From contig JAGWWF010000018.1 of the NCBI GenBank assembly GCA_018970445.1, positions 5,001-69,000 on the forward strand: a stretch of DNA of 64,000 nucleotides, given 5' to 3'. The notes beneath the pieces are model-generated. The model saw nothing but the letters and a program-made list of their open reading frames with translations. It was not told the origin of the DNA and ran no database searches. The first letter of the stretch is position 1. Every line of letters starts with the position of its first letter. This DNA is from Alphaproteobacteria bacterium (GTDB lineage: Bacteria; Pseudomonadota; Alphaproteobacteria; Sphingomonadales; Sphingomonadaceae). The position numbers and the translations under genes are program-made. Below, one piece after another: positions 26,893 through 37,684 of this stretch.

Positions 26893-27747
26893 TCAATGCT
26901 GGCCGGTGCGTTCCGCCACGATATGCTGCACCGTGGGCTGCATGCGCGCGTTGTAGCGGGCGAGCACGGGGTGATCGCCGCCGCTGCCATAATGGGTGAT
27001 CAGATCCTGCCCGGTCCACCAGTGCACGGCAAAGCCTGGCGTTTCGGCCACGATCATGTCGCGCCCGTCCGGGTCTTCGGGATCGATGCTGCGAAAATCG
27101 ATCGCCACCTGCGGAGCCGATGATGGGCACACCGCCAGCGTGGTGCCGTGCCAGCCGGTGACGATGGCGCGGTGCAGATGGCCGGTGATCATGCGGATCA
27201 CCTGGGGGTGGCGGCGCACCACGGCGGCCAGCCGCTGCGCCCAGGGCGCGTCCACATCCTCGGTCATCCAGCCGTTGCCGGTTTCGATCGGCGGGTGGTG
27301 CAGCACCAACACGGTGGGGCGATCATCCTGCGCCAGGGTCGTATCAAGCCAGGCGGCCTGTTCCACCGTCAACGCGCCGCCGTGCTGGCCTTCCAGCAGC
27401 GTGTCGAGCACGACAAAGCGCAAGGGGCCCTGCACGAAATCATATTGGACATGGCCGCTGGCCGAGACCGGCACATCGGGAAACACGGCGCGGAAATTGG
27501 CGCGGACATCGTGATTGCCCAGCGCGAAATGCACCGGAAAGGGCAGCCGGTCGGTGATGGATTTCAGCGTCTGATATGATGCGATGGCGCCATGTTCGGT
27601 GAGATCGCCGGTGGCGAGCAGCAGATCGGGCCGCGGGTTCATCGCCAGCAGCGTTTCGATCACCTCGTCGAATCGCTTGCGGTTCATTTCGGCCGGGTCG
27701 TCCGGCTGAAAGCCAAGATGAATATCGGTCACCTGGGCAACCAGCAT
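26893..27747 (-). CDS. CpdA-like class III cyclic-nucleotide phosphodiesterase
   Basis: 284 residues. Calcineurin-type metallophosphoesterase with all five blocks: VTDIHLG (D-x-H), LLATGDLTEHG (GD), FALGNHD (GNHD), VLVLHHPPI, and MITGHLHRAIV (GHxH). The DxH...GDLTEHG...GNHDVR spacing is that of CpdA, which hydrolyses 3',5'-cAMP; other substrates such as glycerophosphodiesters are possible. ATG at 27747 follows GAGGGCGG. It lies 111 bases downstream of the decaheme cytochrome gene on the same strand, so it may belong to the module whose flavoprotein carries two cyclic-nucleotide-binding domains. Confidence 0.85.
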   Translation of the reverse strand: MLVAQVTDIHLGFQPDDPAEMNRKRFDEVIETLLAMNPRPDLLLATGDLTEHGAIASYQTLKSITDRLPFPVHFALGNHDVRANFRAVFPDVPVSASGHVQYDFVQGPLRFVVLDTLLEGQHGGALTVEQAAWLDTTLAQDDRPTVLVLHHPPIETGNGWMTEDVDAPWAQRLAAVVRRHPQVIRMITGHLHRAIVTGWHGTTLAVCPSSAPQVAIDFRSIDPEDPDGRDMIVAETPGFAVHWWTGQDLITHYGSGGDHPVLARYNARMQPTVQHIVAERTGQH

Positions 27748-27858
27748 GTTACCGCCCTCGCCTGCCGCGCCGTGATGGCGCCAGCCCATCCCCGCCCAGA
27801 TACGCAACGACCATTGACCCTGACGCAAGCGCGGCGGGCGCGCAAGGCGGTGATGCGA

Positions 27859-29835
27859 TCAGGAACCGAACCCTGCGCTGCGCGGCCGGGCCGGGGCGGC
27901 GGCCAGCCGCGCGGCGGTGCGCTGGCCGCCGCCATGGCCAGCCGGCACCGCGCCAGCCGGGGCCACACCATCGTGATAGCCATGGCAGGTATCGCAGCTG
28001 TCGCCGGCCTTGGCGGTGCGGGCCAGCAGCGCCTTGGCCGGGGCGCCATGGCATTGGCGGCAATTGGCCACGCCGGGGATGTTCACATCGGTGGCGGCCT
28101 TTGATCGGGTGATGCCGGTGTGGCAGGCCAGGCAGGCGGCGTCGCCGGTCTTGCCGTCATGGCTCTTGTGCTTGCCGTGCGGGAAGCGGCCCTGCGGCAG
28201 ATAATGATCGTTGAGGCTGACCGGCGCGATGGCAAAGCGGCGGGTGATGTCTGCGCTGCCGGTATCGGTGACGACATGGCAATCTGTGCACAGGCCCCTT
28301 CCGGTGAAGATGCCGGCCACCGCGGCGCGGGCGCGGCCCTGGGCATCGCCGATGGAGGCCAGGCGCAATTGCTGGGCTTCCACTTCGGCCAGGCGGCCGG
28401 GCGGGCGGCGATCAAAGGCGATGCGCTGCACGCCGGCGCGGGGTGCCAGCGCCTGCGACAGGTAGAAATCGCGGATGATGCCGGCCACCTGCGCCGGCTT
28501 GCCGTGCGGCAGCGTGCGCAGCGTGCCGCCCCCCGGTCCAGCTTCTCGGGCAAAGGCCAGATCATGGCAGTCGCCGCAATTGGCTTCCATGTCGATGGGC
28601 TTGAACCGCTGCTGATCGGCATCGGGCACATGGCAGGCGGCGCAGGGCAGGCTGCCATCGCTGGCCAGCGTCATGCCCTGCTTGCGCGCCATGTTGGCCA
28701 CCGCATTGGTGGCCGATTGGTGGATGTCGTGCGGATAGATCAGGCCGGATCGTTCGCGCGCGCCGGCCAGCGCGGTGCGGGCAAGGACCGGCCGGGTGAG
28801 CGACGGTGTGGCCACCAGCGTGGCGCGGAAATCCGGGTGCCTGGCCCAGCCCGGCACATCGGCCACCGCCGTATCGGGCAGTCGGCCCTTCAGCCCGGCG
28901 TGGCAATCGGTGCAGAATTGCTGGGCCACCGTCATCACCGTGGCTTCGCCCTCATGCTCCTTGTGGCAGCTGGTGCAGCGGCCCTGCGGCAGGTTGAAGG
29001 CCCCGTGCGCCGCCGCCATCACCCCGGTTTCCGGCTGGCGGCCGCTGGCCAGCCGCGCCGGGGCGGCGTGATCGGGCAGGGCCGATTTGGTGTGGCAGGC
29101 CTGGCAGGCGCTGTCGGTCACGCTGACGAACGCCTGGGTGTGGCAGGCGCCGCAATTGTTGGACAGGCTGGCATGGGCGTTGGACAAGGGGCCCGATGAC
29201 CAGACTTCGTCGGGCGCAAAGCCGCCGGCCACCGCCGGCCGCGCCGCGGGCACGCCCAGCCGGCCATCGCCAAAGGCCTGGCCGGGGGTGGTGGGGCGGG
29301 CGGCCTCTGCCACCATGCTCTGGGGCAGGGCGGCGCGGCCTTCGCCGATGAAATGGGCCAGCGGCAGCAGCAGCAGGCCGATCAGCACGACCAGCGCGCC
29401 CGCCCAGGCCAGCCGCCGCCGGGTGGGCATGGCGCCGGCCAGCGAGAAGATGGAGACTTCCTGGGTGGCATCGGCCGTGTCGATGGGCGGGATCACCCGT
29501 TCGGCGGTGATGGCCACCGCGCCATCCTCGCCGGCGGACAGCGACAGGCGGAACGGCCCGATGTCCACCGCTGGCGCATCGGCCACATCCAGATCGGCGC
29601 GGGTGACGAACTTGCCGGCCACTTCCACCGGCACGCCGCCGGTGGTTTCGATGCTGACGCGGGTGGCGGCGATGCGCACCAGCCGGGCGTGGCGCAGCAT
29701 GACGGCCAGATCGGGCAGCTGGACATCGCAATCGGTGCCGCGCCCGATGCTGATTTCGGCCTGCACCAGGGTGCGCGTGCGGATGATGTCGCCGCCGTCG
29801 GCCCGTTTGGTCAATTGGCGAATGATGAAGCTCAT
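27859..29835 (-). CDS. FHA-domain decaheme cytochrome c, membrane-anchored
   Basis: 658 residues from ATG 29835 (GGTGAGG upstream). Residues 1-110 resemble a forkhead-associated domain (ISIGRGTDCDVQLPD near 28-42, RHARLV near 48-53), but the usual phosphothreonine-binding Ser three residues before the conserved His is Met. One membrane helix (about 142-162) follows. The rest is presumably periplasmic and carries ten CxxCH heme sites, at about residues 228, 244, 287, 308, 398, 420, 516, 568, 592 and 614. Many extra His residues can serve as distal ligands. It is the likely electron acceptor or outlet of the redox module; it resembles cytochrome c3/c7-type multiheme proteins rather than any named reductase. 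Confidence 0.88.
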   Translation of the reverse strand: MSFIIRQLTKRADGGDIIRTRTLVQAEISIGRGTDCDVQLPDLAVMLRHARLVRIAATRVSIETTGGVPVEVAGKFVTRADLDVADAPAVDIGPFRLSLSAGEDGAVAITAERVIPPIDTADATQEVSIFSLAGAMPTRRRLAWAGALVVLIGLLLLPLAHFIGEGRAALPQSMVAEAARPTTPGQAFGDGRLGVPAARPAVAGGFAPDEVWSSGPLSNAHASLSNNCGACHTQAFVSVTDSACQACHTKSALPDHAAPARLASGRQPETGVMAAAHGAFNLPQGRCTSCHKEHEGEATVMTVAQQFCTDCHAGLKGRLPDTAVADVPGWARHPDFRATLVATPSLTRPVLARTALAGARERSGLIYPHDIHQSATNAVANMARKQGMTLASDGSLPCAACHVPDADQQRFKPIDMEANCGDCHDLAFAREAGPGGGTLRTLPHGKPAQVAGIIRDFYLSQALAPRAGVQRIAFDRRPPGRLAEVEAQQLRLASIGDAQGRARAAVAGIFTGRGLCTDCHVVTDTGSADITRRFAIAPVSLNDHYLPQGRFPHGKHKSHDGKTGDAACLACHTGITRSKAATDVNIPGVANCRQCHGAPAKALLARTAKAGDSCDTCHGYHDGVAPAGAVPAGHGGGQRTAARLAAAPARPRSAGFGS

Positions 29836-29842
29836 GGCCGCC

Positions 29843-30748
29843 TCACCAATAGAGGAACACGGAAAGGACATGGGCGAACAGCGCCGCCAGCAGCGCGATC
29901 GTCACCGGCACATGGACATAGAGCCACAGCTCCAGCCGCGCCTTCATGGCGATGTGGCGGCGGGCCTGGGCCAGGGCCGCTTCCTTGCGTTCCAGCAGGA
30001 ACTGGATCTGCTGCAACCGTTCATCGGCGCGGCCGCTGCGCATGGCGGCCATCACCTTGTCGCCGATGGCGGCCAGGGCGCGGGCGTTGCCATCGCGGTG
30101 ATAATTGCCCGACAGGCGCTGGCCCAGCGATCCGGCGATGCGGCATTCCTCCAGGCTCATCCGCACCAGCGCGGCATCATCGGCGCCCAGCGGCTGCGCG
30201 GCCAGATCCAGCTGGCGATCGAGCGTGCGCACCGCCTCCAGCATCTGCTGCTGCGTCACCTCCCCGCGATTGGCCGACAGTTTTTCGGGCAGGGTGGCAT
30301 AAAGGCTGATGCCCCACAGCCCCGACAGGATGACGATCATCATCAGCGCCCAGGCCAGGGTGTGGACATTCCAGCCCAGCTGGAAGCCGGTGTGCAGTGT
30401 GCCGATGACGATCAGCGACAGGCCCAGATAGACATGGGCGCTGGTCCAGCCCTTCAGGCTGAACGGCTTTGATCCGATCACCCGCTTGCGCACGCCCAAC
30501 AGCGAAAGCCAGACGATCATGCCGGCGCCGATGCTGCCCAGCGTATAGCCCAGCCAGGTGCCGCCGTTGGGGCGCGGCGTTGCATCGGTGAGCAGATAGG
30601 CCAGCAGGGCAACGATGCTGATGGTGCCCGCCACCTTGGCCCAGCGGCCGCGCCGATGGCCCAGAAAGCCTTCGTGTGCCGTGTCGCGCGGGGCGCGGGT
30701 GACGGCCTTGCCGGTCATCGCTTTTCGGGTGGGCGCGGTGCTGGCCAT
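29843..30748 (-). CDS. Membrane cytochrome b-like protein of the redox module
   Basis: 301 residues with about five membrane helices (37-54, 66-85, 103-121, 127-150, 274-299). Histidines at about 105, 119, 129, 279 and 293 fall in or at the ends of the helices and could bind two b-type hemes. A 120-residue charged, helical stretch (about 155-270) lies between helices four and five. ATG at 30748 overlaps the stop of the flavoprotein (TGATG), and the gene ends eight bases before the cytochrome c. It probably links cytoplasmic electron donation to the periplasmic hemes. No closely named family is recognised. Confidence 0.75.
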   Translation of the reverse strand: MASTAPTRKAMTGKAVTRAPRDTAHEGFLGHRRGRWAKVAGTISIVALLAYLLTDATPRPNGGTWLGYTLGSIGAGMIVWLSLLGVRKRVIGSKPFSLKGWTSAHVYLGLSLIVIGTLHTGFQLGWNVHTLAWALMMIVILSGLWGISLYATLPEKLSANRGEVTQQQMLEAVRTLDRQLDLAAQPLGADDAALVRMSLEECRIAGSLGQRLSGNYHRDGNARALAAIGDKVMAAMRSGRADERLQQIQFLLERKEAALAQARRHIAMKARLELWLYVHVPVTIALLAALFAHVLSVFLYW

Positions 30749-33279
30749 CACTGGCCCTCCCGGCCCATCAGGGCGACCGACAGGAATTGTTCGGGCGAGA
30801 CGCGGATGGCAGCGCCGGTGGGGCAGGCACGCACGCAGGCCGGGCCGCCGTCCTGGCCCGAACACATGTCGCACTTGATCGCCTTCTTGGCCTTTTCGGC
30901 ATAGGCGGGATCGGCCTTCTTGGCCCATTTGTGGCTGGGCTCACCGGGGCCGGGGCCATTGCCGAACAGGAACCAGCTCAAGAGCCACGGCTTTTTCGGC
31001 GGCACCTTGTCCATGCGGATCACGCCATAGGGGCAGTTGCGCTGGCAATTGCCGCAGCCGATGCAGGTGTCGTCGATATAGACCTCGCCGGTGGGGCCAC
31101 GATGGATGGCATTGGGCGGGCAATCGGCCATGCAGTGCGGATGCTCGCAGTGGCGGCAGCTGGTGGGCACGTGCAGATGGGCATAGGTGCGCCCGGCTTC
31201 GCGATCCAGCCGCGACAGGCCATCGTGGGTGTCGGCGCAGGCCTTCTCGCAATTGTCGCAGCCCACGCAGAGCTTTTCGTCGATCAGCAGCACATCGGTG
31301 GCTTCGCCGACGCCCTGATCCACCAGGAAATTGGCCACCCCGGTGTACATGTCGACCACGCCGGAAAAACTGTCCTTCTTGGATTCGATGTAATTGTTCA
31401 GCCGTGTGCGGTTGGCCATTTCGCCGCGCAACTTGTCGAGCAGTTGCGGCTTGGCGGCCAGCAGCGCCCGGAAGGATTCGCCGGCCAGCCGGATCACGTC
31501 GCTTTTCACCGCGGCGCGCACGGTGGCACTGCGCAGCGACCCGTCGATCACCGCCATTTCGCCGACGAAGCTGCCGGCCGGCACATAGGACAGGAACACC
31601 GGCTTGCCGCCGATGCTCTTCTCCACCACCATCGAGCCGGAGCGGATGATGAAGATGTCGTCGCCCGCTTCGCCTTCCTTGATGATGGCCTGGCCGGCGC
31701 GGATGCTCTCCACCTTGGCCTGGGCAATCACGTCCACCAGATCGGCCGGGGCGAGGCCGGACTTGAAGATCTGCAGCAGGCTGCGCTCGGTGGTGATGCG
31801 GGTGATTTCGCGCGCGGCCGATGGCACCTGGCTCATCAGCTTGAGCGCGGCGTTGCGGCTGATCTCCACCAGGATGCAATCGCTGCCGGCGCGGATGGTG
31901 GCACCGCGCCGCCGCCCGGAAATCAGGCCGACCTCGCCAAAGATGGTGCCGGCGTTGATCGGCACGGTGATGCCGGGGTCGGTGGGGTTCACCTCCACCA
32001 GCACCTGGCCATCGGCGATGCCGAACAGCGAGGAACCGGGCGCGTTGCGTTCGAACACCACGTCGCCGGCGGCATAGCGCTTCACGCTCGAATCAAGCAT
32101 GAATTCGCGCATCTGCAGGGCCGACATGCCCTGCAGGATGGAGACATTGCTGCGCAGATATTCCAGCCAGTCCGCCACGCTGCGGCCGCCCGGCAGGCCG
32201 GCAAACTTGGCCTCCAATATGGGCTCGTCTGCCGGTTTCAGGTCCAGATTGCCGTTGATGAACTCCACCACATCGTGGCCCTGGTTCATGCAATGCTTGA
32301 TCAGCGGATAGCCGGCGAGCGCGCCCACCACATAGATGCCGGGCGCCGTCGATTCGAAGGTGGCCGACAATTTGGGGAAGGCCAGCCGGTCGCTGGAGGC
32401 AAATTCGATGCCGCAGCCCTCGACAAAGCCACGCGGCGGCGCCGAACCCATGCGGGCGATGATGCGGTCGCAGCGGGCGCGCACCTCGCCATCGCGGGTG
32501 TCGAGCGTGATGAAGCCCGGCTCGATCGCCTTGGTGGTGGTCTCGGTCATGATGCTGATGCGGCCCGCATCGCGGGCGGCGAGCAGCGCCTTGACATTGG
32601 CATCCTTGGCAGTGGCGAAATCGGCCGATCGGTTGACCAGCGTGACACTGTTGTTCTGGGCCGGATCGGCGCACAGGCCCAGGGCGTTTTCGATGCCGGC
32701 ATCGCCGCCGCCGATCACGAAGATATGTTCATCGGTATATTCGGTGGGATCATCCAGCTGATACTGCACATGGGGCAGGTTGCCGCCGGGGCAGGTCATC
32801 AGATTGGGGTTGCCCTGGGTGCCGATGGCCAGGATCACCGTGTCGGCGATGATCTCCTCGCCATTGGTCAGGGTCAGCCGATAGGGCGGGGCGTGGCGCT
32901 GCAGCTCGCGCGTCTCGCTGCTGCCGTCGCGCTTGCGGGTGACGATCTTCATCACCGATCCGTCGATGGCCGGCCCGGTGCCAACGATGGATTTCACTTC
33001 GGCATGATGCTTCACGTTCACGCCGGCCGCCGCGGTCTGGTCATTCCAGGTGCCCAGCACCACCTCGCGCTTGCCGGCTTCGAAATCCAGTGGCGAGCGC
33101 AGCACCAGCTGTGACGGCGTTGCCATCACATGCTTGCCCTTCTGATATTTGTAGATCGTGTCCGACAGATGGTCGGTCTTTTCGATCAGCACGTGGGACA
33201 GGCCCAGCCGCGCCGCATGCGCCGCCGCCGACAGGCCGGCCGGGCCCGATCCCACGATGGCGATGCGATAGGCGGTCAC
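30748..33279 (-). CDS. Flavoprotein with two cNMP-binding domains and a four-cluster Fe-S domain
   Basis: 843 residues. Residues 1-345 are a pyridine-nucleotide-type oxidoreductase with FAD motif VGSGPAG (9-15) and NAD(P) motif IGGGDAG (189-195); there is no CxxC redox pair, so it is not a thioredoxin reductase. Two cyclic-nucleotide-binding domains follow (about 385-480 and 510-610), with phosphate-cassette sequences FGEVGLISGRRRGAT and VGEMAVIDGSLRSAT, both keeping Glu and Arg. Residues 664-825 have four Cys-rich clusters (CVGCDNC, CRHC..HC, CIGCGNC, CDMC..C) like HybA/NrfC ferredoxins. No signal peptide, so cytoplasmic. It probably moves electrons from NAD(P)H to the membrane partner under cNMP control. 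Confidence 0.85.
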   Translation of the reverse strand: MTAYRIAIVGSGPAGLSAAAHAARLGLSHVLIEKTDHLSDTIYKYQKGKHVMATPSQLVLRSPLDFEAGKREVVLGTWNDQTAAAGVNVKHHAEVKSIVGTGPAIDGSVMKIVTRKRDGSSETRELQRHAPPYRLTLTNGEEIIADTVILAIGTQGNPNLMTCPGGNLPHVQYQLDDPTEYTDEHIFVIGGGDAGIENALGLCADPAQNNSVTLVNRSADFATAKDANVKALLAARDAGRISIMTETTTKAIEPGFITLDTRDGEVRARCDRIIARMGSAPPRGFVEGCGIEFASSDRLAFPKLSATFESTAPGIYVVGALAGYPLIKHCMNQGHDVVEFINGNLDLKPADEPILEAKFAGLPGGRSVADWLEYLRSNVSILQGMSALQMREFMLDSSVKRYAAGDVVFERNAPGSSLFGIADGQVLVEVNPTDPGITVPINAGTIFGEVGLISGRRRGATIRAGSDCILVEISRNAALKLMSQVPSAAREITRITTERSLLQIFKSGLAPADLVDVIAQAKVESIRAGQAIIKEGEAGDDIFIIRSGSMVVEKSIGGKPVFLSYVPAGSFVGEMAVIDGSLRSATVRAAVKSDVIRLAGESFRALLAAKPQLLDKLRGEMANRTRLNNYIESKKDSFSGVVDMYTGVANFLVDQGVGEATDVLLIDEKLCVGCDNCEKACADTHDGLSRLDREAGRTYAHLHVPTSCRHCEHPHCMADCPPNAIHRGPTGEVYIDDTCIGCGNCQRNCPYGVIRMDKVPPKKPWLLSWFLFGNGPGPGEPSHKWAKKADPAYAEKAKKAIKCDMCSGQDGGPACVRACPTGAAIRVSPEQFLSVALMGREGQ

Positions 33280-33389: not shown

Positions 33390-33451
33390 CTAGACCTAGA
33401 ATGACGGCCGCGCGCTTTTTTTGTGATCGGCCTGCCGGAGCCCCGCCTGCC

Positions 33452-35437
33452 ATGCTTGCCGAAATCGGCCATTTCGCCCTGATCCTTGCCCTGCTGGTCG
33501 CTGCTGCCCAGGCGGTGCTGCCGATGCTGGGGGCGGTGCGCGGCGATGCGGCGCTGATGGCGTTCGGGCGCAGTGCGGCGGCATGTCAGGCCGTGCTGAT
33601 CGCGCTGGCCTTTGGCTGCCTGATGATCCTGTTCGGCCGGGCTGATTTTTCGGTTGCGCTGGTTGCCAATCACAGCGCGCTGTCGCAGCCCTTGCCCTAT
33701 CGTCTGGCCGCCACCTGGGGCAATCACGAAGGATCGATGCTGCTGTGGGTGCTGGTGCTGGCGCTCTATGGTGCCGGCATTGCCCGCTTTGGCGACAATC
33801 TGCGCACCACGCTGCAGGCGCGCGTGCTCAGCGTGCAGGCGATGATCTCGGTCGCCTTCCTGGCCTTTGCGCTGTTCACCTCCAACCCGTTCGCGCGGCT
33901 GTCGCCGGCGCCGCTCGACGGGGCGGAACTCAACCCGCTGCTGCAGGATCCCGGCCTCGTCTTCCACCCGCCGCTGCTGTATCTGGGCTATGTCGGTTTT
34001 TCGGTCACCTTCAGCTTTGCCGTGGCCGCCCTGCTGGAAGGCCGCGCCGATCCGGCCTGGGCGCGCTGGATGCGGCCCTGGGTGCTGGCGGCGTGGGTGC
34101 CGCTCACCATCGGCATCACGCTGGGCAGTTTCTGGGCCTATTACGAACTGGGCTGGGGCGGCTGGTGGTTCTGGGATCCGGTGGAAAATGCCAGCTTCAT
34201 GCCCTGGCTGCTGGGCACCGCGCTGCTGCATTCGGCCATCGTCACCGAAAAGCGCGGCAGTCTGGCCGGCTGGACGATATTGCTTGCCATCCTCGCCTTC
34301 TCGCTGTCGCTGATCGGCACCTTCCTTGTCCGCTCCGGCATCCTCACCTCGGTGCATGCCTTTGCGGTCGATCCCGAACGCGGTGTGTTCATCCTGGCCA
34401 TGATCATCGGCGCCACCGGCACGGCGCTGGCGCTGTTCGGCGTGCGCGCGCCGCAGATGAAATCGGGCGCGCTGTTCGGCAGCATCAGCCGCGAAGCCGG
34501 GCTCACGCTCAACAATCTGCTGCTGATGGCGCTCACTGCCGTGGTGTTCCTGGGCACCTTCTATCCGGTGATCATGGAAGCGGTGGCGCCGGCCAACAAG
34601 ATTTCGGTGGGCCCGCCCTATTACAATCTGGTGTTCGTGCCGCTGTCGGTGCCGTTGCTGCTGCTGGTCACCGCCGGGCCGATGCTGGCGTGGAAGCGCG
34701 ATGATCTGGCAACGCTGGGCCGCAAACTGCTGGTGCCCGCCGTGCTCACGGGCGCACTGCTCGCCGGCCTGTCGCTGTGGACCGGGCTGGCCAAGGCAAC
34801 GGCCGCCCTGGGGCTGGCGCTGGGCGGCTGGCTGGTGCTGGGCGCAGCTCTGGTGCTGGTGCGGCGCTGGTGGGGGGCGGGCGGCTTTTCCTGGCGGCTG
34901 GTGCGCACCACGCCGGCGGCCAGCATCGGCCTGGCACTCGCCCATGCCGGGCTGGGCTTCACCACCGCGGGCATCGCGGCGATGACCAGCTTTGCCGCCG
35001 AACATATATTGGTGATGCGCCCCGGCGAGACCACCAGCGCCGGGCCATTGCGCCTGACCATGCTGGGCGCGCAAGAGGTGGACGGGGCCAATTATCGCGC
35101 CATGCGCGCGCGGTTCCTGGTGCGCCAGAACGGCGGCGAACGCATCCTGGTTTCGGAACGCCGCTTTTACGACAACAGCCGCAACCAGACGACCGAGGCC
35201 GGCATTGGCGTGTCGGTGCTGGGCAACCAATATGTCGCCATCGGCGATGTCCAGTCCGATGCGCGCGGCCAGGGGCTGGTGGTGCGGCTGTACTGGCATC
35301 CGCTGGTGGGCTGGATCTGGTTTGGCGGCCTGCTGATGGCGCTGGGCGGCGCGGCCAGCCTGTCGGATCGCCGTTTCCGCATCGGCGCCCCGCAACGCCG
35401 CGCACCCCTTGCGCCCAATCTGGTTCCGGCCGAATAA
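33452..35437 (+). CDS. ccmF: Cytochrome c maturation heme lyase CcmF
   Basis: 661 residues, the normal CcmF size, with many membrane helices. The tryptophan-rich heme-handling motif WGGWWFWDPVENASFMPWL is complete, and TWGNHEGSMLLW and FHPPLLYLGYVGF are the conserved periplasmic loops with His ligands. CcmF, with CcmH, attaches heme to CxxCH apocytochromes in the periplasm. ATG at 33452 begins MLAEIGHFAL; an earlier ATG at 33401 would add 17 unusual residues. First of four ccm genes and divergent from the multiheme module that would need it. ccmABCDE are not in the window. Confidence 0.97.
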   Translation: MLAEIGHFALILALLVAAAQAVLPMLGAVRGDAALMAFGRSAAACQAVLIALAFGCLMILFGRADFSVALVANHSALSQPLPYRLAATWGNHEGSMLLWVLVLALYGAGIARFGDNLRTTLQARVLSVQAMISVAFLAFALFTSNPFARLSPAPLDGAELNPLLQDPGLVFHPPLLYLGYVGFSVTFSFAVAALLEGRADPAWARWMRPWVLAAWVPLTIGITLGSFWAYYELGWGGWWFWDPVENASFMPWLLGTALLHSAIVTEKRGSLAGWTILLAILAFSLSLIGTFLVRSGILTSVHAFAVDPERGVFILAMIIGATGTALALFGVRAPQMKSGALFGSISREAGLTLNNLLLMALTAVVFLGTFYPVIMEAVAPANKISVGPPYYNLVFVPLSVPLLLLVTAGPMLAWKRDDLATLGRKLLVPAVLTGALLAGLSLWTGLAKATAALGLALGGWLVLGAALVLVRRWWGAGGFSWRLVRTTPAASIGLALAHAGLGFTTAGIAAMTSFAAEHILVMRPGETTSAGPLRLTMLGAQEVDGANYRAMRARFLVRQNGGERILVSERRFYDNSRNQTTEAGIGVSVLGNQYVAIGDVQSDARGQGLVVRLYWHPLVGWIWFGGLLMALGGAASLSDRRFRIGAPQRRAPLAPNLVPAE

Positions 35438-35443
35438 GCCGCC

Positions 35444-35971
35444 ATGCAGCGCCTGCTCTTCATTGCGCCGATCATCGCCTTTGTCGGCCTCGCCGGATTC
35501 CTCGGCTATGGCCTGACGCAGGATCCCAAGCAGCTGCCCAGCCAGCTGATCGACCGGCCGCTGCCCGAATTCGCCCTGCCCGGCATCGATGGCCCCGTGC
35601 TGGCCAGCGCCAGCTTCAGGGGCGAACCGCGCCTGCTCAACGTGTGGGCGAGCTGGTGTGCGGCCTGCCCGCAGGAGCATCCGGTGCTGGAACGCATCGC
35701 CGCCGAAGGCTTCCCGGTCTATGGCATCGCCTGGAAGGACAAGCCGGACGACAGCCGTGCCTTCCTGGCCCGCTTCGGCAATCCCTATGCCGGGCTGGGC
35801 ATGGATCAGGCCGGGCGCACCGCCATCGATCTGGGCGTCACTGGCGCGCCGGAAAGCTTTGTGGTGGATAAACGGGGCCGGGTGCGCTTCAAGATCGTCG
35901 GCCCGATCAGCCCGGAACAATGGGAAGGCGAGATCAAGCCCCTGATGCAGAAGCTGAGGGCCGAGGCATGA
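35444..35971 (+). CDS. ccmG: Thiol:disulfide interchange protein CcmG/DsbE
   Basis: 175 residues. An N-terminal membrane anchor (LLFIAPIIAFVGLAGFLGYGL) precedes a thioredoxin fold with the active-site WASWCAACPQE and cis-Pro segment VTGAPESFVVD. It keeps apocytochrome cysteines reduced for heme ligation. It starts six bases after ccmF and overlaps ccmH by four bases (ATGA). Confidence 0.95.
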   Translation: MQRLLFIAPIIAFVGLAGFLGYGLTQDPKQLPSQLIDRPLPEFALPGIDGPVLASASFRGEPRLLNVWASWCAACPQEHPVLERIAAEGFPVYGIAWKDKPDDSRAFLARFGNPYAGLGMDQAGRTAIDLGVTGAPESFVVDKRGRVRFKIVGPISPEQWEGEIKPLMQKLRAEA

Positions 35972-36417
35972 GGCGTCTGCTGCTTGCCCTCGCTCTGGCC
36001 CTGGCCCTTGCCGCCCCAGCCACTGCCGTCATGCCCGATGAAATGCTGGCCGATCCCGCCCAGGAACAACGCGCGCGCAGCATTTCCAAGGATTTGCGCT
36101 GCGTCGTCTGCCAGAATCAGAGCATCGACGACAGTGACGCGCCGCTGGCCCGCGACCTGCGCCTGCTGGTGCGCGAACAGATCACCCTGGGCAAGACGGA
36201 TGCCGAGGTGCGCGATTATGTGGTCGCCCGCTATGGCAATTTCGTGCTGCTGAAACCGCCGGTGGAAGGCGACACGCTGCTGCTGTGGGCCGGGCCGTTT
36301 GCCGTGCTGATCCTGGGCGGGATTGGTGTCGCGGTCTGGCAACGCCGCAAACCCGTCACCGCCGCCGATGCCCCCCTTTCCGATGCCGAACGCGCCGAAC
36401 TGGATCGGCTGAGCTGA
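35968..36417 (+). CDS. ccmH: Cytochrome c maturation protein CcmH (CycL)
   Basis: 149 residues. After a signal peptide (LALALALAAPATAV) comes the CcmH domain with LRCVVCQNQSIDDSDAPLARDLR, in which the RCxxC pair handles apocytochrome thiols, and VRDYVVARYGNFVLLKPP. A C-terminal helix (LLWAGPFAVLILGGIGVAVW) anchors it. The start overlaps the ccmG stop; a frame extension upstream is inside ccmG. Confidence 0.95.
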   Translation: MRRLLLALALALALAAPATAVMPDEMLADPAQEQRARSISKDLRCVVCQNQSIDDSDAPLARDLRLLVREQITLGKTDAEVRDYVVARYGNFVLLKPPVEGDTLLLWAGPFAVLILGGIGVAVWQRRKPVTAADAPLSDAERAELDRLS

Positions 36418-36430
36418 AACCGGACCTGTC

Positions 36431-37684
36431 ATGACCCTGTGGATCATCCTTACCGCCATGGCGGCCCTGGCCGCCGCCTGGCTCACCATCCCGCTGGTGC
36501 GCCGCCACGATGCCCGCGTGGATGCCCGCGCCGCCACCATCGCGGTGCTGAAGGACCAGCTGGCCGATGTCGATGTGCAGCTGGCCGCCGGCAGCATCCA
36601 GCCCGGTGAAGCCGAAGGGCTGCGCAACGAGATCCGCCGCCGCCTGCTCGCCGCCGGCCATATCCCGGCCGAGCTTGATCGCACCATGGGCCAGAAATCC
36701 CTGTCGGGCCTGGCGCTGGGCATGGCGGCGATGGTCGCGGTGGCCGCCGCCGCGCTCTACACCAACATGGGCCAGCCCGAACTGGCCGGCACCGCCGCTG
36801 CACCTGGGGCCGCGCCGCCCGCCGCCGCTGCCGCCGCGCCGCCGGCCCAGGCCCAGGCCGAAGTGGCGCAGCTGATCACCGGCCTGGAACAGAAGATGCA
36901 GGCCAACCCGCAGGATCCCGAAGGCTGGCGCATGCTGGGCTGGAGCTATTTCCAGACCGGGCGTTATGGCGATGCCGCCAGGGCCTATGCCCGCGCCATC
37001 GCGCTGAAACCCGATGGTGTCGGGTACCAGTCCGCCTATGGCGAGGCGTTGGTGCAGGAAGCCGGCGGGCAGGTGACGCCAGCCGCGGCGGCGGCCTTTG
37101 AACGGGCGGCGAAACAGGATGGCGCCGATGCCCGTGCCCGTTATTTCCTGGGCGTGCGCAAGGCCGAAACTGGCGACCGCAAGGGCGCGATCGACGATTG
37201 GCTGCGCCTGCTGGCCGATTCGCCGGCCGATGCGCCGTGGCTGCCGCAGCTGCGCGGCGTGATCGAACAGACGGCCGCGCAGGCGAAGATCGACATCGCC
37301 GCCCGGCTGGCCGCCACCCGCCCGGTGGGCAATGCCAGCGTGCCCGGCCAGCCCGACCCGGCCGCTGCTGCTGCCGCCACCGCGGCATCGGCGGCCCCGG
37401 CCGGCGTGATGCCCAGCCCCAGCCGCGAACAGGTGCAGGCTGCCAGCGCGATGACCCCGGCCGACCGGCAGGCGATGATCCGCGGCATGGTGGATGGGCT
37501 GGCCGAAAAGCTGAAGGCCAATCCGAAGGACGAAGCCGGCTGGCTGCGCCTGATCCGCGCCCGCCAGGTGCTGGGTGACACGGCGGCGGCGCGCACCGCG
37601 CGGGATCAGGCGCTGGCGGCCTTTGCCGGCGATGCGGCCGCGCAAGGCCGGATCAGGGCAGCGGCGGCGGAGATGGGGCTTTAA
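36431..37684 (+). CDS. ccmI: Cytochrome c maturation TPR protein CcmI
   Basis: 417 residues. Two N-terminal membrane helices (about 1-20 and 95-115) flank a short helical loop (VDVQLAAGSIQPGEAEGLRNEIRRRLL), and a periplasmic TPR region (WRMLGWSYFQTGRYGDAARAYARAIAL) follows. CcmI chaperones apocytochromes, binding their C-terminal helix, and delivers them to CcmF/CcmH. An Ala-Pro-rich linker (about 120-145) separates the parts. It follows ccmH by 13 bases; its TAA shares the palindrome TTAA with the stop of the convergent phosphatase gene. Confidence 0.92.
   Translation: MTLWIILTAMAALAAAWLTIPLVRRHDARVDARAATIAVLKDQLADVDVQLAAGSIQPGEAEGLRNEIRRRLLAAGHIPAELDRTMGQKSLSGLALGMAAMVAVAAAALYTNMGQPELAGTAAAPGAAPPAAAAAAPPAQAQAEVAQLITGLEQKMQANPQDPEGWRMLGWSYFQTGRYGDAARAYARAIALKPDGVGYQSAYGEALVQEAGGQVTPAAAAAFERAAKQDGADARARYFLGVRKAETGDRKGAIDDWLRLLADSPADAPWLPQLRGVIEQTAAQAKIDIAARLAATRPVGNASVPGQPDPAAAAAATAASAAPAGVMPSPSREQVQAASAMTPADRQAMIRGMVDGLAEKLKANPKDEAGWLRLIRARQVLGDTAAARTARDQALAAFAGDAAAQGRIRAAAAEMGL

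Follow-up and report, generated by a model that had tools for sequence, protein, structure and literature searches.

What joins a soluble flavoprotein that carries two cyclic-nucleotide-binding (CNB) domains to a membrane protein, a multiheme cytochrome and a phosphoesterase? The question is raised by four genes at positions 26893-33279 of a 64,000-nucleotide stretch of DNA (the window) from an Alphaproteobacteria bacterium of the Sphingomonadaceae (NCBI GenBank assembly GCA_018970445.1, contig JAGWWF010000018.1, positions 5,001 to 69,000 of the forward strand). An earlier note, made from the sequence alone, had placed all four genes on one strand and had proposed, as the simplest reading, that electrons pass from NAD(P)H through flavin adenine dinucleotide (FAD), Fe-S clusters and membrane heme b to periplasmic hemes under the control of a cyclic nucleotide (cNMP). 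All four open reading frames (ORFs) are indeed present on the minus strand, and the system to which they belong is real, conserved and larger than these four genes. In our judgement it is rather probable that the window holds the inner-membrane half of an NAD(P)H-fed, cNMP-gated electron conduit across the cell envelope, the outer half of which is encoded on another contig of the same genome.

Conservation of the three-gene unit

The genes coding for the flavoprotein (P0004), the membrane protein (P0003) and the decaheme cytochrome c (P0002) had been described as overlapping or nearly touching, and this is what we find: the stop codon of P0004 and the ATG of P0003 overlap as TGATG, and a gap of 7 bases separates P0003 from P0002. 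The phosphoesterase gene (P0001) follows P0002 after 111 bases. A search across genome contigs gave at least 594 pattern hits and confirmed at least 567 relatives of P0004, and the best 80 of these 567 loci, which are close relatives of the source genome, were kept. P0004 is followed by P0003 in 78 of the 80 and the full order P0004-P0003-P0002 is found in 77, the three loci that break this order all lying at contig ends.

Whole genomes were sampled in three sets that overlap each other (246 Sphingomonadales, 398 genomes of the phylum and 98 relatives), and profiles A1 (P0004, 34 rows), A2 (P0003, 28 rows), A3 (P0002, 24 rows) and A4 (the phosphoesterase P0001, 21 rows) were made from chosen rows rather than from all loci. 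Two further profiles are A5 (a decaheme cytochrome with LVIVD repeats, 17 rows) and A6 (an outer-membrane barrel, 13 rows). Among the Sphingomonadales the P0004 and P0002 profiles match the identical 55 of 246 genomes, and in all 55 the two matches lie on one contig and one strand with 859-970 bp between them. At least six genera (g15, g63, g64, g66, g67 and g273) mix members with and without the unit. Across the phylum, P0004 matches 15 of 398 genomes, namely eight of the same family (the source included), two from different orders within the class and five from different classes. Eight loci (L130-L137) were taken from seven P0004-bearing genomes outside the order, L132-L137 coming from other classes, and in seven of the eight a P0002 relative adjoins P0004 or its fusion with P0003, described below. 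The gene order is thus not confined to one genome, and the idea of an orphan gene set was rejected in view of these relatives across many Sphingomonadales and other classes.

Two further occurrences may be recorded here. The genome that contains L134 (G098) has a second P0004 relative on contig 17 (L137:8485-10962), and neither a P0003 nor a P0002 match was found in the stretch fetched around it. In addition, 12 Sphingobium replicons in PLSDB bear P0004 relatives.

Co-occurrence with a second operon

We clustered the ORFs from 85 loci that span 12 kb or more together with those of one Sphingobium plasmid locus (n=86), which revealed recurring neighbours of the module: the LVIVD decaheme cytochrome (30/86), a protein without Pfam assignment that ends in Tyr or Phe (26/86) and an HbpS-like protein (8/86). 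The LVIVD-repeat cytochrome is 1,297-1,463 residues long and has ten CxxCH motifs in all 17 aligned rows. On the 959-kb plasmid pMSHV of Sphingobium herbicidovorans (L113) the inner and outer genes are found together, the latter being annotated as 'multiheme c-type cytochrome', 'hypothetical protein' and 'heme-binding protein'. In the source genome the outer genes form an operon of their own (P0005-P0008; Table 1), in which the pentaheme cytochrome P0005 has four CxxCH motifs and one CX4CH motif.

The distributions of the two halves coincide. A5 matches 55 of the 246 Sphingomonadales genomes, and these are exactly the carriers of P0004 and P0002 (for this 55-genome comparison split matches, one of A3 and several of A5, were merged to one per genome, and the module-side phosphoesterase copy of genome G613 was used). 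The A5 gene is convergent to the phosphoesterase gene and within 2.5 kb of it in 29 of the 55 genomes, and lies at 5.5 kb in G397. In nine of the remaining 25 it shares the contig at a distance of 28 kb to 2.2 Mb, and in 16 it is on a different contig, so that linkage alone does not explain the co-occurrence. Among the 98 relatives, a set that shares some genomes with the 246, A5 matches 33 and full-length P0004 matches 32, the sole discord being G044, which is 67% complete. Within the genus (24 genomes) the two match the same 20, and joint absence is seen in G019, G020 and G021 (97-100% complete) and in G016 (78%). Finally, A5 matches 11 of the 398 phylum genomes, all of them within the 15 that bear P0004.

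Several loci are also collinear. In L132 one strand carries P0004, P0003, P0002, HbpS and barrel genes, with A5 next by coordinates; in L131 the inner genes and a pentaheme gene share one strand, with barrel and A5 genes also in the cluster; and in L070 and L076 the genes for P0004, P0003, P0002, the phosphoesterase, the pentaheme cytochrome, HbpS and the barrel follow on one strand, where the locus ends. Together with the co-occurrence, these collinear operons would carry the electron chain on to the outer membrane, past the periplasm where the earlier note had let it end.

The barrel protein P0007 is known to us from prediction. In its model, made with 13 rows, a signal-type helix is accompanied by 18 strands, each 9-21 residues long, and Foldseek returned AlgE chains at all of ranks 1-17 (best E 1.7e-16), followed by MOMP and OprD-type porins. 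A crude count of amphipathic strands against shuffles gave a z of 3.5 for P0007, as compared with 1.3 for P0006 and no excess for three other proteins. Pfam yielded one weak Alginate_exp match (E 0.014) and one unrelated match for the 13 barrel rows, and searches of solved structures gave none at E<=0.001 for A5 and none at E<=1 for A6. The LVIVD cytochrome P0008 resembles the curated models ExtM (E 4.2e-20), ExtN (E 2.2e-08) and ExtO (E 2.3e-08), all three matches falling far below cut-off (71.6 against 800 bits for ExtM).

The HbpS-like P0006 (L148:4032-5987) is a lipoprotein candidate with a lipobox-like start and three HbpS-like stretches.

Table 1. Module genes and domains, neighbouring genes and the outer operon (window positions unless a contig is named)
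Feature	Coordinates	Strand	Description
P0004	30748..33279	-	843 aa, GTG start; soluble flavoprotein with FAD/NAD(P), two CNB domains and four-cluster ferredoxin domain
CNB1	31789..32079	-	P0004 residues ~401-497; phosphate-binding cassette FGEVGLISGRRRGAT (E449, R458)
CNB2	31456..31710	-	P0004 residues 524-608; cassette GEMAVIDGSLRSAT (E574, R583); best PF00027 stretch
Four-cluster ferredoxin domain	30802..31290	-	P0004 residues ~664-826; DmsB/HycB type, PF13247 E 9e-12
P0003	29843..30748	-	Inner-membrane diheme cytochrome b candidate; 302 aa if from GTG 30751
P0002	27859..29835	-	N-terminal FHA-like domain, one transmembrane helix, decaheme cytochrome c
P0002 transmembrane helix	29356..29412	-	Residues 154-172 counted from 29871; by hydropathy; TRRR just before
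P0001	26893..27747	-	Class III metallophosphoesterase, cNMP phosphodiesterase candidate
ccm genes	33401..37684	+	ccmF, redoxin (ccmG position), ccmH, ccmI-like TPR, by Pfam; context, not module
Outer operon of source genome	G000:C22 ~70466-80013 (L148), another contig		Pentaheme P0005, HbpS-like P0006, barrel P0007, LVIVD decaheme P0008

The flavoprotein and its cyclic-nucleotide-binding domains

Pfam bears out the domain fusion first read from the letters of P0004, with matches to Pyr_redox_2/3, two cNMP_binding stretches and 4Fe-4S domains. The protein matches the YpdA model at E 1.6e-34 and the CRP model at E 8e-22, both under the curated cut-offs, and matches to the solved structure of PKA RI-alpha span residues 401-608. 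Its ferredoxin domain matches the solved structure 7z0s_B at E 1.9e-19 and has invariant Cys clusters both in the 34-row alignment and in a nine-protein comparison. We propose that NAD(P)H enters at P0004 and that this subunit also senses cNMP. The source genome has a single full-length copy, plus two weak partial matches, and a single PF00211 cyclase domain, PF00211 being the only cyclase class searched.

Both phosphate-binding cassettes are well preserved. E449/R458 and E574/R583 are invariant in nine of nine proteins, six of them from other classes, and the same Glu and Arg, with a spacing of nine residues, are likewise invariant in the 34-row alignment. A regular expression for the cassette fits 31 of 34 rows in CNB1 and all 34 in CNB2; in the three CNB1 misses neighbouring residues differ and the aligned Glu and Arg are kept. 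On this pattern the cNMP sites of both domains look functional. The residue after the cassette Arg bears on the choice between cyclic GMP and cyclic AMP (cAMP), and we draw no conclusion from it here.

The membrane protein and the decaheme cytochrome

P0003 had been described as a His-rich membrane protein. A membrane protein is present, and its histidines make it better described as a diheme cytochrome b candidate. Numbered from GTG 30751, it has the motifs W102-X3-H106-X13-H120 and W276-X3-H280-X13-H294, with SGXXG at 143; both WX3HX13H motifs are found in 28 of 28 aligned orthologues, across which H106/H120 and H280/H294 are invariant, and SGXXG is found in 27. When members were searched singly against Pfam at E<=0.01, 18 of the 28 matched cytochrome b561 (PF01292) and three matched Ferric_reduct. 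The AlphaFold model, with a predicted local distance difference test score (pLDDT) of 83, has five membrane-length helices and a helical insert.

In two genomes of one genus from another class, P0004 and P0003 are joined as one ORF (L135:3052-6423, 1123 aa; L136:8850-12206, 1118 aa), and the P0002 relatives that adjoin these fusions have nine CxxCH motifs and one CX3-4CH motif. In the fusion the Fe-S domain adjoins the N-terminal end of P0003, which fits a cytoplasmic N-terminus.

For P0002, orthologue starts favour ATG 29835, the ORF itself opening at 29871. The ten CxxCH motifs of the FHA-linked decaheme cytochrome that had been proposed here are present in 24 of 24 aligned orthologues, and by the positive-inside rule the TRRR just before the transmembrane helix would place the hemes on the periplasmic side. 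For its FHA-like part the Pfam match falls below cut-off (18.6 against 20.7 bits), although the profile of 24 orthologues also finds solved FHA proteins (GarA, E 3.1e-05), and the GR and His of the FHA domain are retained in all 24.

The phosphoesterase and other neighbouring genes

P0001 starts at ATG 27747, as in its orthologues, the listed ORF opening at TTG 27828. The description as a CpdA-like phosphodiesterase holds as far as family resemblance goes: Pfam Metallophos matches at E 1.1e-16, the metal motif D.H/GD/GNHD/H/GHxH is complete in 21 of 21 aligned orthologues, and the nearest solved chains are the 'Phosphohydrolase' 2dxl and Rv0805. The closer assignment falls short, the CpdA model (PRK11148) giving 101.6 against a cut-off of 225 bits and the best NCBIfam model, SpdA, a 2',3'-cNMP enzyme, giving 122.9 against 400 bits.

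The conservation of this gene with the module proved to be regional. The phosphoesterase profile matches 69 of the 246 Sphingomonadales genomes, that is, 55 of 55 with the module and 14 of 191 without, and in 52 of the 55 the gene lies on the same strand as P0002 and within 500 bases of it. The exceptions are G537 (15 kb off), G052 (12.6 kb, other strand) and G588 (other contig), in the last of which P0002 sits at a contig end. Similarly, among the 74 loci with a near-complete P0002 within the best 80 of 567, the phosphoesterase lies at most 500 bases downstream in 61, overlaps by 11 bases in two and is 2.1-5.6 kb away in five, with no match in the fetched stretch of the other six. Outside the order it lies 4.7 kb from P0002 in L130, and the profile found no match in the fetched stretches of L131-L137. 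Given the absence of a match in L131-L137 and its presence in 14 genomes without the module, the phosphodiesterase was rejected as a core part; it is a regional companion of the module in Sphingomonadales.

On the other side, the ccm genes diverge from P0004 at a distance of 121 bp. Of the 75 fetched loci that reach 12 kb or more, 65 have a ccmI-like cluster of the TPR_CcmH_CycH type; ccmF is found in 12 of 86, and the 60 ccmI-like members listed are all on the strand opposite P0004.

A proposed electron path and its alternatives

In the proposed path, NAD(P)H would reduce the FAD of P0004, and electrons would pass from this flavin through four [4Fe-4S] clusters to two b hemes of P0003, cross the inner membrane to ten c hemes of P0002, and continue by way of the pentaheme and LVIVD cytochromes of the outer operon to an acceptor that is located in the outer membrane or outside it. 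Lying between flavin and clusters, the CNB domains would gate this flow by cyclic nucleotide and set the rate at the flavoprotein, and in the Sphingomonadales the adjacent phosphoesterase would lower the cyclic-nucleotide signal. Up to the periplasm this is the route of the earlier note, with which the three linked genes, the P0004-P0003 fusion and the intact cNMP cassettes are all in agreement. That in sphingomonads and some other Pseudomonadota a second messenger opens or closes NAD(P)H electron export across both membranes directly, by an allosteric rather than a transcriptional route, with the phosphodiesterase resetting the signal in Sphingomonadales, is put forward tentatively, at somewhat less than an even chance; in our view no other part of the system is of equal interest or has been tested less.

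Several observations weigh against this proposal. P0004 occurs without A5 (at E<=1e-60) in four of the 398 phylum genomes (G250, G098, G131 and G249). The barrel profile A6 matches five of eight chosen genomes, G250 included; G098, G131 and G249, which belong to other classes, have the inner module with neither a barrel nor an A5 match, so the inner half can exist without the outer half. The Fisher's p of 2.8e-56 overstates the case, related genomes not being independent; another contig of a draft assembly is no proof of distance; and the distances of P0004 and A5 correlate weakly and uninformatively (r 0.26, 7 loci). Foldseek found no PDB match for the P0003 model at E<=0.001, so that the cytochrome b fold is not confirmed, and the best solved-structure match of the P0003 profile has E 0.71. 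The FHA loop position at which we take the conserved phospho-binding Ser to lie has Ser in one and Thr in three of the 24 P0002 orthologues; the FHA-like domain (window ~29480-29800), without this Ser, may serve for docking and not for reading phosphothreonine. Of CRP-like boxes the window has six, below the 11.5 expected by chance. As for the barrel, the P0007 model has a mean pLDDT of 58, lowest in the disordered N-terminus and mostly 64-84 in the strand-rich blocks, and its 18 predicted strands may be too narrow for enclosing a cytochrome. MtrB, which holds a cytochrome, has 26 strands.

The small size of such a sheath leads to an alternative with a soluble acceptor let in by the barrel: an NAD(P)H-fed oxyanion reductase, in which an oxyanion such as tellurite or selenite would enter through the barrel and be reduced in the periplasm by the LVIVD decaheme. 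The predicted AlgE/OprD-like fold is one of substrate pores, and the Ext proteins that are nearest to P0008 among curated models, for all the weakness of those matches, come from a Geobacter selenite/tellurite operon. Moreover, the module is carried (L026) by Sphingomonas ursincola strain KR-99, which we take from the names alone to be the same strain as KR99 below, and no outer operon lies within the fetched KR-99 flank. Other carriers include Sphingobium and Novosphingobium, which are not known as tellurite specialists. In Erythromonas ursincola strain KR99, tellurite is reduced by a constitutive, NADH-dependent membrane enzyme, which on purification consisted of 62 and 55 kDa subunits with peptides that best matched GroEL (PMC5488091). 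These sizes fit neither P0004 (~93 kDa) nor the LVIVD cytochrome, and on account of this misfit the KR99 reductase was rejected as the present system and kept as a lead for the oxyanion alternative. In the ext operon, too, a porin gene stands beside genes for cytochromes, a cytochrome b and an Fe-S protein (PMC5877670). Taken together, we consider an oxyanion reductase unlikely. Electrons might also flow inward, the conduit delivering those of an extracellular donor such as Mn(II), Fe(II) or phenolics to the quinone pool or to NAD(P)+, and this seems to us quite improbable. For Fe(II) or Mn(II) to reduce NAD(P)+ is thermodynamically unfavourable, and an NAD(P)H-type flavoprotein and four-cluster ferredoxin joined to a cytochrome b would favour an NAD(P)H donor. 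For inward flow speaks the model of He et al. for the clusters PCC3 and PCC4, which have the same inner-membrane motifs, and the PCC3 holders that they list include an Erythrobacter Mn(II) oxidizer (PMC5566968).

A further possibility is a stand-alone redox device of the inner membrane that serves periplasmic thiol or heme supply, or cytochrome c maturation, the outer operon being merely a frequent companion. The divergent ccm genes and the recurring ccmI-like gene agree with such a device, as do the three genomes that hold the inner module without an outer-half match. Cytochrome c maturation is, however, needed more widely than the module occurs, and the module shares its 55 of 246 genomes with A5 despite the distance or other contig in 25 of them; we hold this reading to be very unlikely. 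Compatible with any of these accounts is the absence of cNMP control, the CNB domains being structural relics and the phosphoesterase cleaving some other phosphodiester. SpdA as its best model and the distant modules without an adjoining phosphoesterase match are in keeping with this; against it stand the cassette Glu and Arg, invariant in nine of nine proteins across classes, and the adjacency of the phosphoesterase in 52 of 55 module genomes. We regard an absence of cNMP control as doubtful, while taking it seriously.

If the NAD(P)H conduit is what these genes encode, then 55 of the 246 sampled Sphingomonadales genomes carry a complete electron line from NAD(P)H to the outer membrane, partly annotated as 'hypothetical protein' and with its two halves often far apart. 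Sphingomonads are mostly known as aerobes. A second messenger would sit directly in the redox path, PCC4-like systems would gain a concrete electron donor, and the genes would be candidates for the NADH-dependent reduction of tellurite by membranes of aerobic anoxygenic phototrophs, for which PMC5488091 identified no gene.

Comparison with known systems

No account of the sphingomonad system was found in the open-access literature searched, and none of six sphingomonad-related terms occurs in PMC11475568. The closest published relatives are the putative porin-cytochrome c clusters (PCC) proposed as PCC3 and PCC4 by He et al. (2017; PMC5566968). There, PCC4-like systems are known only at the level of gene clusters, for which a link to quinone is assumed; the PCC4 inner-membrane protein has five helices, the fourth with SGXXG and the third and fifth with WX3HX13H; in subgroup II a pfam13247 Fe-S gene lies upstream of the gene for this protein; the two genes are annotated as joined in Oceanospirillum beijerinckii; and the cytochromes have 4, 5 and 10 hemes. 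P0003 shares the pattern of five helices, SGXXG and two WX3HX13H motifs, P0004 shares the PF13247 Fe-S domain upstream of the membrane gene (78/80 loci), and a porin with several multiheme cytochromes is common to both, a likeness that rests on the published motif descriptions. In contrast to PCC4, the heme-binding motifs here number 10 (P0002), 10 (LVIVD cytochrome) and four CxxCH with one CX4CH, FAD/NAD(P) and a pair of CNB domains are built into the Fe-S protein, long distances often separate the two halves, and the gene set includes an HbpS-like lipoprotein. The terms 'cAMP', 'cyclic nucleotide' and 'FHA' are absent from the main text of He et al. Strict membership of PCC4 was rejected on the heme counts of 4, 5 and 10, and membership of PCC3 on heme density, with ~66 residues per heme in P0002 and 130-146 in the LVIVD cytochromes (17 rows) against 22-39. 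A porin-type barrel gene and multiheme cytochrome genes do stand together in the C22 operon, as in the general definition of such clusters.

The Geobacter ExtHIJKLMNOPQS selenite/tellurite cluster, according to the available part of PMC5877670, similarly has a porin, multiheme cytochromes, a cytochrome b and an Fe-S protein, to which the partial ExtM match of P0008 may be added, but it has a Rieske protein in place of the four-cluster domain and neither an NAD(P)H flavoprotein nor CNB domains. With MtrCAB and OmbB-OmaB-OmcB the system shares the general plan of a periplasmic multiheme cytochrome and an outer-membrane barrel, whereas no sequence relation was shown and the barrel here is predicted to be 18-stranded. 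AegA unites a ferredoxin domain with a pyridine-nucleotide flavoprotein. The four-cluster ferredoxin domain of P0004 matches the AegA/YgfT ferredoxin-flavoprotein models, from which P0004 differs in its domain order (AegA model 5-149 corresponding to P0004 664-831) and in the inserted CNB domains. Seen beside these relatives, the system belongs with the porin-cytochrome clusters and stands out by its unusual entry point for NAD(P)H and, probably, by its gating through cNMP.

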